The notes under the pieces: model-generated
What the model saw: the letters and a program-made list of their open reading frames with translations, nothing else
Told to the model about the DNA's origin: nothing
Databases searched by the model: none
Made by a program: the position numbers and the translations under genes
DNA from: Vibrio sp. CDRSL-10 TSBA
GTDB taxonomy: Bacteria; Pseudomonadota; Gammaproteobacteria; Enterobacterales; Vibrionaceae
Reading direction: 5' to 3'
Assembly: GCA_039696685.1 (NCBI GenBank)
Contig: CP155566.1
Span: 2,976,001-3,040,000, forward strand
Length of the DNA stretch: 64,000 nt
Shown here: piece by piece, positions 265 to 61,212 of the stretch
Layout of the letters: each line of letters begins with the position of its first letter
How positions within the stretch are numbered: the stretch's first letter is position 1

Positions 265-670
265 TCAACAAACTTCGCAATTAATGATCCAGCGAACACC
301 GAACTGATCCTCAACTTTTCCGCACCGGGTGCCCCAGAAACGTGTCTTCTAATGGCATCATCACTTTACCCTGTTCCGCTAACTGCTCGAATAATACGAG
401 TTGACGATCAATGTCATCCATGACTACAGACAGTGCAATCTGATTATCTTTGAGCTCCTGAGTGGCAATGCCATCAGACAGCATTAACTTCATATGCTGC
501 GTAACCAGTTCAGCATGCATGATCCAGTTCGGATCAACGCCTTTAATCAACTGCGGCGCTTCATGAAAATAGCGTTTAGTTAATACATGGCCGTCAAAAC
601 ACTGGCAATAGAAGTCGAGCGCCTGTTCACAGCGACCGGAAAAAAATATATACGGTGTGAGGATAAACAT
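265..670 (-). CDS. PhnB-like VOC (glyoxalase-fold) protein, frameshifted by one base
   Basis: This is a small single-domain protein of the glyoxalase/bleomycin-resistance (VOC) superfamily, PhnB-like group, 134 residues when corrected. It begins MFILTPYIFFSGRCEQALDF, typical of that group. ATG at 670 is preferred because AGGAGG lies 5 bases upstream; an in-frame GTG at 676 would overlap the ribosome site. As written the frame ends early at about 311, but removing one A from GAAAC at 337-341 (plus strand) restores the usual ending DTFWGTR-GKVEDQFGVRW and a stop at 265-267. The ligand or reaction of this group is generally unknown. Confidence 0.75.
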
Positions 671-801
671 AGTCACCTCCTGCTTTTATAAAAAGCATAG
701 TCGATCCCTCTCACCAAATCTTAATACTGGAATGTCACTTTACAGATAGGGACTCAAGCAGCGCCAAAGTTCTGCCTGCTTGTCTGCTACATCTTTAGCT
801 A

Positions 802-2370
802 TCAATCACTCATCTCAGTACGGTTACGACCATTATGCTTGGCCTGATACAGCGCCATATCCGCCTTTTTCATCACTGATTCAATGGTTTCATCATCAGC
901 GGCCCAATGCGCCACACCAATTGAAATAGTAATAGACGGCACCATAGTGAAACTATGATTGGCCACTGAGGCCCGGATACGTTCCGCCACCTCATAAGCC
1001 CGGGCGATATTGGTATTACTGAGAAACAGGATAAATTCTTCTCCGCCTGCACGACACACAATATCTTGCTCTCGTGCCTGCTGTTTCATCAAACTCGATA
1101 CTTCGCGTAGCAGCTCATCACCCGCATCATGCCCATAGGTATCATTGACCTTCTTGAAATAATCCAAATCCAGTGCAAGCACAGAAAATGGTATCTGGCG
1201 GACAGTAAAACTCTCAATACTTTGTTCTAACCCACGTCGGTTCAACAATCCGGTCATAGCATCAGTTAAGCTGTCGGACTGCAGTCGATCGATCGTGTTA
1301 GACACAACCCCGAATGCACGTAGAAAACTCTGTTTGAGGTGAGCGGCCTCAAAATACCAGGGTTTGACGAGTTTCATCTCATCCATGACTAAACTGTCAC
1401 TTTCTAGTTTCTTGACCGCGCTGGCCAATTGCCAAAGTGGTTTTGAGATAAAAATCGCCGATATCCAGATAATAATCAGCGTGACGATACCTATCGGGAT
1501 CGATTGCCACACCACTTTAAGCAACTGTTCATCAAGCACCATCAATGCCTCTGCACGTGGTTTCTGCGCCACAATACCCCAACCGGATTGTTTAACCGGA
1601 GCATAACCGGCCAGCATTTCAGTACCGAGAAAATTGAACGTATCGATGTGGCCGGTTTCACCACGTGTGACTGCGTTTATCGCCGCATTTTTTGTGATCA
1701 CCTGGCCGATGCGTCGATGGTCCGGGTGATAAATCAGAGTACGATTATGATCAACCACATACAGATATGAACCGTCACGGTAACTGTGTTTACCCAGTAG
1801 CGTGGCCAGCATATTTTTCTGTTCCAGATAAATCGTGCCGCTGACAAATCCCTGATACTGGCCGGAAGTTGAAAAGATCGGATAAGAGATACTGGTAATA
1901 TAGTTGCCCGCCGGGGAGACGAAAGGATCAGTAATCAGCGGCTTTTTTGCCGTGAGAGACTGGAGCGAGTTGACGCCGGTCAGCGTCATGCCAGTCACTG
2001 GCAGCGTTTGCGGCGCGATCGCCTGAATCACACCATCGGCATCGACCACGACCACAGAATTAAATGAGTCAGTCTGCTTTTTTAGCCGCTCAGTCTCAGC
2101 CAACAACAATTCAGGATCCGCGATTTTATCACTCAGCACCGCTGCACTAAACGCGAGCTGATTGAGTGCCGAAGTCAAAAATGCATCTGTCATTTCGGCC
2201 ATCTTCTCGGCATACACCTGATTAGAAGCCAAAGTATTGTCGACGATTAACTCTCGCTGCACCCGATACATGGAGTAGAATGCATTGATTAGGGTGATAA
2301 ATGCAGTGAATATGCACAACAGTAAAATGAGTCTTCTTAAATTTAGTTTATCTCCGGACACTTCTATCAT
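802..2370 (-). CDS. Membrane diguanylate cyclase with dCache sensor and GGDEF domain
   Basis: The 522-residue protein makes cyclic di-GMP from two GTP. A transmembrane helix near residues 14-34 and a second near 285-305 bracket a periplasmic region that resembles a dCache small-molecule sensor. The GGDEF domain follows from about residue 362 (LTDAMTGLLNRRG), with the active-site loop written GGEEF at 442 and an inhibitory I-site R-E-Q-D nine residues before it, so product inhibition is expected. The start at 2370 lacks a strong ribosome site. It stands alone, with an HD-GYP gene downstream on the same strand. The sensed signal is unknown. Confidence 0.9.
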   Translation of the reverse strand: MIEVSGDKLNLRRLILLLCIFTAFITLINAFYSMYRVQRELIVDNTLASNQVYAEKMAEMTDAFLTSALNQLAFSAAVLSDKIADPELLLAETERLKKQTDSFNSVVVVDADGVIQAIAPQTLPVTGMTLTGVNSLQSLTAKKPLITDPFVSPAGNYITSISYPIFSTSGQYQGFVSGTIYLEQKNMLATLLGKHSYRDGSYLYVVDHNRTLIYHPDHRRIGQVITKNAAINAVTRGETGHIDTFNFLGTEMLAGYAPVKQSGWGIVAQKPRAEALMVLDEQLLKVVWQSIPIGIVTLIIIWISAIFISKPLWQLASAVKKLESDSLVMDEMKLVKPWYFEAAHLKQSFLRAFGVVSNTIDRLQSDSLTDAMTGLLNRRGLEQSIESFTVRQIPFSVLALDLDYFKKVNDTYGHDAGDELLREVSSLMKQQAREQDIVCRAGGEEFILFLSNTNIARAYEVAERIRASVANHSFTMVPSITISIGVAHWAADDETIESVMKKADMALYQAKHNGRNRTEMSD

Positions 2371-2612
2371 TCCATTAACCGTTGCCTATTGGTTTTCTTC
2401 CGCTACTTTTCCGTGCACAATCATAGCGACAATTTACTTACCATTACATGCAATAAATCAGAGTATTAATATTGTTCACGTCTAAAAAATGACACTGAGT
2501 CGAGATTAAAGCGTGAATTTAATTCATAGTAATATTGAACAGAATTCAATTTGATAAAAATCACAATATGGTTCAATAACCGCCATCATCCCACGTACTT
2601 CAGGCGCTTAAG

Positions 2613-59734: not shown

Positions 59735-59822
59735 GGCCGTTTGCTGTTGTACCGACATGCTCGGTAACAACACTCTCACATGTTAATCAACATACTGTTT
59801 TTGCTTATTTTGGAGTCAAACC

Positions 59823-60443
59823 ATGTTTAACCAAACCCTGCTGGTAGCGGGCATTACTGCTGCACTGTGCAGCAATGCTTTTGCACAAAGTGAGTTTCGT
59901 CAGCACGAAGCGCACGTTCACGGCCATGTCGAACTGAATATCGCCCAGGATGGCGATGATCTGTTAATCGAAATCACCGCGCCCGGCGCTGATGTCACCG
60001 GCTTTGAACATGCGCCGCAATCGGACAGCGAAACTAATCTGCTCAATCAGGCGCTCGAAAATCTCAATCAGGCGGATTCGCTGTTTACCCTGAGTGAAGC
60101 AGGCTTGTGCTCGCTGGAACATGCTGACGTCGGCCATAATCTGGGCGGCCACCAGCCGCATCATGATGAAAAACACGATGAACACGATGACCACCATGAT
60201 CATGCCGGCCAGCACGACCAACACCATGCTGACGATGATGCGGATCATGCTCACCACAGTGAACATGGTGCGTTCACCATTCAATACCAGTATCACTGTG
60301 AGCAGATCAGCAACCTTAAACAGATAGAAACCCATTGGTTTGATTTATTTCCGTCAACGCGCGAAATGCAGGTTAATCTGTTGACCGATACGATGCAAAC
60401 TGCGACGGAACTGACGCCGAAATACACCGTCATTTCACTGTAA
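59823..60443 (+). CDS. zrgA: Zinc uptake protein ZrgA (DUF2796)
   Basis: ZrgA is the periplasmic His-rich component of the Vibrio ZrgABCDE zinc-uptake system. The 206-residue protein has a signal peptide ending SNAFAQ, a first domain FRQHEAHVHGHVELNIAQDG, a central His/Asp-rich linker (about residues 110-145, HHDEKHDEHDDHHDHAG and similar) that can bind many zinc ions, and a second domain YQYHCEQISNLKQIETHWFDLFP. ATG 59823 follows TTTTGGAGTC. Confidence 0.88.
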   Translation: MFNQTLLVAGITAALCSNAFAQSEFRQHEAHVHGHVELNIAQDGDDLLIEITAPGADVTGFEHAPQSDSETNLLNQALENLNQADSLFTLSEAGLCSLEHADVGHNLGGHQPHHDEKHDEHDDHHDHAGQHDQHHADDDADHAHHSEHGAFTIQYQYHCEQISNLKQIETHWFDLFPSTREMQVNLLTDTMQTATELTPKYTVISL

Positions 60444-60494
60444 TAGGCATACGGGTAAGTGAGTACTTACCCGATTTCTCGCCAAGGAGACGTG

Positions 60495-61212
60495 ATGAAT
60501 CAACCCCATCTCTATTCTGCCGAACAGGTGATCGCCCTGGACCAGGTGCTATTCCGGTGGCCGGACACCGACCAGCCGACCCTGGATATCGCTGAACTCT
60601 CTGTCGCGGCCGGGCAACATCTGTTCATAAAAGGGCCAAGCGGCTGTGGTAAATCCACTCTGCTCAGCCTGCTGACCGGTATCAACACCGCCAGCCAAGG
60701 CAAGGTCAGCTTGCTGGGGCAGGATTTGGCCCGACTTAAGGCCAGCCAGCGCGATCGTTTCCGCGCTGACCATATCGGCTACATTTTCCAGCAGTTCAAC
60801 CTGCTGCCCTATTTATCTGTGCTGGATAATGTCATTCTGCCGTGCCAGTTTTCCGCTCTGCGCAAGAGCAAAGTCTCCGGCTCACTGCAGGCTCGTGCCA
60901 GCGAAACTGCTTGAACGCCTGCACCTGCCTCACGACCTGCTGCACAAATCGGTGCTGGAGCTGAGTATCGGCCAGCAGCAACGGGTTGCGTCGGCGCGCG
61001 CCCTGATCGGCGAACCGCATCTGATTATTGCCGACGAACCGACCTCTGCCCTTGATCATGACAACCGCAGCGCATTTATTGATTTGCTGCTGGAAGAGGT
61101 CAATCGCGCCGGATCGACGCTGGTGTTTGTCAGTCACGACCCGACGCTGGAGTCATGCTTTGAACGAAGCATTCACTTACCTGTCATTAACCGCGCACGG
61201 GGGATGCAATGA
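60495..61212 (+). CDS. ABC transporter ATPase of the zinc operon, frameshifted by one base
   Basis: This is a LolD/MacB-type ATPase, 238 residues when corrected, energising the adjacent FtsX-like permease. It has Walker A IKGPSGCGKSTLLSL, Q-loop YIFQQFNLLPYL and Walker B LIIADEPTSALD. The signature reads LSIGQQQRVASARAL instead of LSGGQ, a notable departure. The frame breaks at GAAAC 60903-60907; deleting one A joins LQARASE to LLERLHLPHDL. ATG 60495 follows AAGGAGACGTG. It probably corresponds to zrgB. Confidence 0.9.

Follow-up and report, generated by a model that had tools for sequence, protein, structure and literature searches.

Why does a 64,000-nucleotide stretch of the Vibrio sp. CDRSL-10 TSBA genome (contig CP155566.1, positions 2,976,001 to 3,040,000, or G000:C2:2976001-3040000; hereafter the window), taken from a two-contig, 4.9-Mb assembly (G000), carry so many genes that appear to be interrupted by one additional base at the motif GAAAC? 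A sequence-only reading of the window had proposed that the 21 insertions it listed are a consensus artefact, with GAAC recorded as GAAAC (GTTTC on the opposite strand) where the motif is modified. Our analysis supports this proposal through the identification of dnd genes in the same genome, a Dnd-like preference in the flanks of the affected sites and the recurrence of the same event in a second dnd-positive Vibrio genome (G061), and it points to phosphorothioation and nanopore sequencing as the probable modification and platform. We consider it very probable that the extra bases are errors of an unpolished long-read, probably nanopore, consensus at Dnd phosphorothioate sites, and that they are absent from the organism. 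A broken genome would thereby be explained without mutation, and a modification of the DNA backbone is predicted from sequence alone.

The motif by itself is weak evidence, since the window contains 172 GAAAC/GTTTC 5-mers, together with 433 GAAC/GTTC, and it is the reading frame that decides. GAAAC or GTTTC is present at all 21 listed coordinates. Open reading frames (ORFs) from relatives were aligned to the unaltered window sequence, using loci from Vibrio, Aliivibrio, Photobacterium, Grimontia and Aeromonas (L002-L018 and L048), stretches of the genomes G009, G061, G203 and G121, and nine short loci of other genomes. The PepA protein encoded in the window is 90-95% identical to PepA in eight named Vibrio records, and the nearest compared genomes share about 80% DNA identity with the window (2.8-kb probe). 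The claim of one extra base at each site was upheld at 16 of the 21, where a net +1 frame break was observed with respect to the relatives' proteins, and none of the sites reached showed a frame break of any other class. The remaining five sites (4112, 5798, 34686, 44906 and 60903) lie outside the reach of the comparison with relatives and have weaker support: at four of them (4112, 34686, 44906 and 60903) the match to a family profile is truncated, fused or divided, and site 5798, the weakest of the five, shows two overlapping frames only, one of them with a GGDEF domain. Depth of support is uneven among the 16 sites, with G061, itself an error-laden assembly, as the single relative at 21833, and G009 as the single relative at seven further sites. 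Three more frame transitions were detected in the window away from the listed sites; none has the motif, and each was seen with one relative only.

The same event was then quantified on 1.264 Mb of G000, compared with 1095 ORFs of one relative, G009; 499 genes (447 kb) within this span aligned well enough to be counted. Net +1 breaks were defined as shifts of 1 modulo 3, and repeated zones were merged. The tally before merging (195 breaks, 186 with the motif and 166 exactly +1) was inflated by repeated zones, eight of them apparently one zone matched by several similar ORFs, perhaps over ribosomal RNA, and the merged count was used instead. This comprised 185 frame breaks, 182 of them net +1 and three net -1. 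GAAAC or GTTTC was found within 12 nucleotides of the break zone in 178 of the 182 net +1 breaks and in one of the three net -1 breaks, versus 8.3% of random zones of equal length, and in 112 of 113 zones of at most 6 nucleotides. The motif is thus 11.8 times more frequent at net +1 breaks than expected (178 observed versus 15 expected). The assertion that no other indel type occurs stood for 182 of the 185 breaks, but not for the three net -1 breaks, nor do four of the 182 net +1 breaks carry GAAAC. One of these four, near 2.81 Mb on the window's contig (C2; L104), has GTTAC in its zone, a single and anecdotal case; GpsTAC is a reported minor phosphorothioate motif (PMC9521924).

Ordinary long-read homopolymer error, falling on AA by chance, would likewise extend a run of two A, as this event does, but CAAAC, TAAAC, GAAAG, GAAAT and four other NAAAN 5-mers showed no enrichment at the breaks (0.3-1.2 times expectation). 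Among nine NAAAN 5-mers the excess was confined to GAAAC, in agreement with the comparison of GAAC against other contexts that the sequence-only reading had put forward. In G121, a frail assembly with no DndC over the cut-off, nine breaks were found, all of them net -1 and several in C runs, with GAAAC nearby in three of the nine versus a background of 16%. Homopolymer error was rejected on the lack of enrichment in the other NAAAN 5-mers, and we regard it as highly improbable. The reverse comparison, with G000 ORFs as queries against G009, yielded 14 merged transitions over 586 ORFs (20 before merging), 11 net -1 and three net +1, indicating that breaks of the G000 kind are at least 50 times rarer in G009.

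Taken at face value, the extra bases are present in the assembled sequence, as they would be if they were real mutations or the product of genome decay. That explanation, however, requires valS, rpoB and many core genes to have been broken at once, with some 41 breaks in every 100 kb of aligned gene (by extrapolation, roughly 2,000 such breaks in the whole genome) and almost always at a single motif. Of 33 Vibrio genomes searched, G000 is the only one whose rpoB gene lies in two frames, offset by +1. Loss of RpoB or of ValS is lethal, and the extra bases are therefore very unlikely to exist in the cell. The earlier argument that hits to essential genes make real mutations implausible is borne out by the disruption of both genes; real mutation was rejected on this ground and can be given almost no credence. 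The G000 assembly has a completeness of 95.9% and a contamination of 4.55%, and its lowered completeness and raised contamination may be symptoms of the breaks; contamination is also 4% in G061, yet similar values occur in assemblies without the mark.

A modification system of Dnd type had been predicted to lie elsewhere in the genome, and dndBCDE and dndFGH were located on the same contig, approximately 1.8 Mb from the window (G000:C2:1196009-1211314; PADLOC and tblastn). The dndE, dndD, dndC and dndB genes form one cluster on the minus strand, with the restriction genes dndF, dndG and dndH beside them on the plus strand. The DndC protein scores above its curated cut-off. With respect to E. 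coli Dnd proteins, dndB, dndC and dndE are each in one frame, and dndH apparently changes frame close to its end, in a weak match. The dndD gene of G000 is in two pieces, with the frame change at a GTTTC, and the dndC gene of G061 also changes frame at a GTTTC, so that the modification genes bear the same mark. An ORF with a DpdB-like match (2e-25) lies inside the dnd island at G000:C2:1205035-1206186, between dndH and dndE.

Phosphorothioated GAAC sites mapped by EcoWI-seq in Salmonella Cerro 87 and in E. coli carrying its dnd genes prefer C at position -2 and G at +2, with A or C immediately before the motif (-1) and T or G immediately after it (+1), within CG-rich surroundings (PMC9521924). 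We compared the flanks of 171 uniquely placed affected sites of G000 with those of 3372 untouched GAAC/GTTC sites in the same aligned genes, leaving out seven breaks whose zones had two or more motifs nearby; affected sites make up 4.8% of the GAAC sites in these genes. Position -1 is A in 0.60 of affected sites (103/171) versus 0.20 of untouched sites, and T in 0.02 (3/171) versus 0.39. Position +1 is A in 0.08 versus 0.29, with G and T favoured, whereas G at +2 (0.54 versus 0.37) and C at -2 (0.42 versus 0.31) are both more frequent in affected sites, as is GC at positions 3-10 (0.554 versus 0.524, p = 0.002). The fraction of affected sites for zero to four agreements with the published rule was 1.3, 2.0, 4.2, 12.3 and 18.8%, respectively, and a logistic model of the four flank bases fitted on G000 attained a cross-validated area under the curve (AUC) of 0.85. 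Position -1 is A in only 23% of the 1122 GAAAC located in aligned genes away from breaks, which show no A preference. When sites were divided by strand and approximate codon phase into six classes, A at -1 had the highest rate in five classes and G in one, and T was lowest or tied in all six.

The same preference is apparent in the window, where the 21 sites outscore the 433 untouched GAAC/GTTC on the published phosphorothioate flank preference (p = 6e-7), overturning the earlier statement that the flanks share no further motif. The restriction to a minority of GAAC/GTTC sites and their flank bias, as read from the insertions, match what characterizes GAAC-type Dnd systems, although in G000 G is commoner than C at -1. 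The agreement of the flanks with an independently obtained phosphorothioate map is the strongest link between the insertions and the predicted Dnd modification.

Another GAAC-specific base modification, such as that of an adenine methyltransferase, could produce the same error, with the dnd genes present by coincidence. Modification-driven nanopore errors are known in Listeria, where one motif has been tied to a methyltransferase target (PMC10687267), and GAAC/GTTC may carry methylation besides sulfur (PMC9069010). A profile search of G000 for two families returned no N6_N4_Mtase (PF01555) match and one marginal N6_Mtase (PF02384) match, of 21.6 bits. Methyltransferases usually modify nearly all of their sites, whereas the affected share here is only 4.8%, and the flank rule lies near that of Dnd sites. 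We judge this alternative to be improbable.

Under the favoured explanation, the Dnd enzymes, whose genes are present in G000, would replace an oxygen by sulfur at GpsAAC/GpsTTC, in the link that follows the G in both strands. Only a minority of GAAC/GTTC sites, chosen by context, would be modified, as the insertions display and in agreement with PMC9521924. Native, unamplified DNA would have been sequenced, most likely by nanopore, and on both strands the base-caller would double the base that follows the sulfur link. At sites modified in a majority of molecules, the consensus would keep the extra base and turn GAAC into GAAAC, so that the broken genes would mark heavily modified Dnd sites. 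Changes in nanopore signal and error at phosphorothioate sites have been published, although insertions are not named as the error type in the available text of PMC9069010, and deletion of dndC lowers the nanopore error signals at GAAC/GTTC 25-fold (PMC9069010). The Dnd footprint could also be right and the platform other than nanopore, such as a PacBio consensus disturbed by slow polymerase steps. Phosphorothioates do alter polymerase kinetics in single-molecule real-time (SMRT) sequencing (PMC9521924), but doubling of the base on both strands would fit signal-based calling better, and a different platform appears unlikely.

Homologs of DndC over the cut-off were identified in 29 of 227 Vibrio genomes searched, and strong DndC matches in 8 of 369 genomes of a class scan and 22 of 394 of an order scan, G000 counted. 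The dnd-positive genome G061 was chosen because its DndC is in pieces and its contamination is raised. In 60 kb of aligned genes, G061 presents 14 net +1 breaks, all 14 with the motif (background 11%), and three net -1 breaks, one of them with the motif. Applied to G061, the flank model fitted on G000 reached an AUC of 0.89 (12 affected versus 398 untouched sites). As side observations, Vibrio DndC proteins seem to form types, with open frames of about 550-620 amino acids (G000-like) or about 650-690 amino acids; the longer type, plus one high-scoring protein of 560 amino acids, shows far higher single-stretch scores, and this second type may have another motif. In G121, the pepA region appears at both ends of contig C1 (G121:C1; 2185 and 3529383), as though a circular chromosome had been left with its overlap untrimmed.

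Several observations weigh against the Dnd artefact explanation. The case for it is drawn entirely from assembled sequence. The order of preference at -1 in G000 (A > G > C >> T) is not strictly the A or C published, and context effects on the base-caller, in addition to the choice made by the enzymes, could contribute to the flank rule. Two of the three net +1 transitions in the reverse control against G009 carry the motif, in a comparison that numbers three cases and is a weak control because its queries are G000 ORFs, many of them fragments. In G203, which is dnd-positive, 30 kb of aligned genes contained one break, net +1 and without the motif, and rpoB is intact in all 20 other Vibrio genomes searched with dnd of the G000 type, G061 included. 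Matches to the G000 dndC were found in 204 of 5426 complete E. coli genomes, and at the six E. coli dnd loci covered the dnd genes are intact and none of seven single-base gaps lies at GAAAC; with six of the 204 dnd-positive genomes covered, E. coli is uninformative as a test of generality. RefSeq may exclude frameshift-rich assemblies. These clean dnd-positive assemblies indicate that dnd is insufficient on its own to produce the mark, and the explanation must assume that they were polished or made in another way. On this explanation, the mark would require both dnd and a sequencing route that is vulnerable and unpolished. Finally, modification by the Salmonella enzymes in vitro did not depend significantly on the flanks (PMC4515589), which gives a strong flank rule real interest, should reads confirm that the base-caller is not its source.

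The closest known systems are those of Salmonella Cerro 87 and E. coli B7A (DndBCDE with DndFGH, acting at GpsAAC/GpsTTC), which have the gene set and the core motif in common with G000 and a flank preference that is almost the same. Compared with the proteins of E. coli GCM74-1-1, the G000 proteins show amino acid identities of 69% (DndC), 66% (DndB), 70% (DndE) and 53% (DndD). The G000 system differs from its Salmonella and E. coli counterparts in its Vibrio host, in accepting G and almost excluding T at -1, in an assembled dndD that the same event has interrupted, and in the share of sites seen, 4.8% through insertions as opposed to the 12% of GAAC sites mapped as modified in Salmonella (PMC9521924). 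Detection of phosphorothioates with ELIGOS (PMC9069010) shares with the present case the use of native DNA and dnd-dependent errors at GAAC/GTTC, but evaluates read-level error odds against an amplified control, whereas in G000 whole insertions are fixed in the consensus. The Modpolish work on Listeria (PMC10687267) shares systematic consensus errors that are tied to a motif and ascribed to untrained modifications, although its motifs are GCAGC and GCTGG, with raised mismatches, unlike the GAAC insertions of G000; searched for as terms, neither 'phosphorothio' nor 'GAAC' turned up in its main text. Phosphorothioation of GAAC and modification-driven nanopore assembly errors (PMC10687267) are thus already known, whereas the open literature, which leaves out most subscription papers and bioRxiv preprints, yielded no prior description of GAAC-to-GAAAC consensus insertions or of a Dnd map frozen in a consensus.

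A faulty assembly would here serve as an approximate map of a chemical DNA mark, the enzymes for which are encoded in the same genome. We lean slightly towards the broader view that heavily phosphorothioated sites can be read, genome-wide, from unpolished dnd-positive assemblies, that the Dnd systems of two Vibrio species pick GAAC by a context of about 6-8 bases close to that of Salmonella (A strongly favoured and T nearly barred at -1, followed by G or T and then G), and that target choice is largely a matter of local sequence. Dnd target choice has been called a mystery (PMC9521924), and such assemblies would offer a cheap route to phosphorothioate maps bearing on the selection by Dnd of roughly one GAAC in eight (12% in Salmonella; PMC9521924). 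Counts of gene loss and pseudogenes in dnd-positive long-read assemblies can be false.

The genes and ORFs affected in the window are the following, with positions counted from its first nucleotide.

311..676, minus strand: ORF with a net +1 break (+1 in five comparisons, five relatives).
4085..4357, plus strand: DUF7282 ORF in which the family's N-terminal part is out of frame (Pfam match begins at profile position 31 of 112).
5223..6711, minus strand: probable GGDEF (diguanylate cyclase) gene in two overlapping frames, weakly supported (GGDEF only in 5223-5867; upstream frame 5788-6711 without a family).
7667..8488, minus strand: lptG with a net +1 break (NCBIfam LptG 1-267 of 351; +1 in 32 protein comparisons).
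11973..14835, plus strand: valS (valine-tRNA ligase) with a net +1 break (first ORF matches ValS 1-482 of 863; +1 in 39 comparisons).
15936..16674, minus strand: one gene as two overlapping ORFs, with a net +1 break (+1 in two comparisons, L048 and G061).
18448..21249, minus strand: rapA with a net +1 break close to its end (RapA 1-908 of 959; +1 in three comparisons, L048 and G061).
21680..23093, plus strand: PhoH-like ATPase gene with a net +1 break close to its start (second piece matches the PhoH2 profile from position 94; +1 against G061 only).
23210..23704, plus strand: ORF with a net +1 break close to its end (+1 in nine comparisons).
31034..31657, minus strand: ORF adjoining mlaF, with a net +1 break (+1 in two comparisons; the neighbour is MlaF).
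33772..35304, plus strand: kdsD and kdsC run together in one open frame (510-amino-acid ORF matching KdsD 8-309 of 328, then KdsC 4-187 of 187).
35301..35720, plus strand: ORF 3' of kdsC with a net +1 break (+1 in two comparisons; no NCBIfam match at 1e-35).
40744..42103, plus strand: mgtE with a net +1 break (first piece matches MgtE 7-346 of 450, below the cut-off; +1 in three comparisons).
44262..44976, minus strand: thiQ with its N-terminus out of frame (ThiQ profile match from position 30).
48037..48501, minus strand: ORF with a net +1 break close to its end (+1 against G009).
48543..49914, minus strand: mpl (murein peptide ligase) with a net +1 break (first piece matches Mpl 1-320 of 448; +1 against G009).
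50169..51180, plus strand: fbp (class 1 fructose-bisphosphatase) with a net +1 break (first piece matches Fbp 2-244 of 335; +1 against G009).
52576..56152, minus strand: long gene in three frames with two net +1 breaks, labelled tamB in the sequence-only reading, whose label is kept (one G009 protein matches three successive frames; +1 at both sites).
58735..59347, plus strand: ytfJ-family gene with a net +1 break (second piece matches YtfJ 81-183 of 184; +1 against G009).
60459..61212, plus strand: ABC ATPase gene (LolD/FtsE-type profiles) in two overlapping frames (pieces match the LolD profile at 16-116 and 106-214 of 221).

The kdsD-kdsC frame at 33772-35304 constitutes a false fusion gene, of a kind that annotation could accept.

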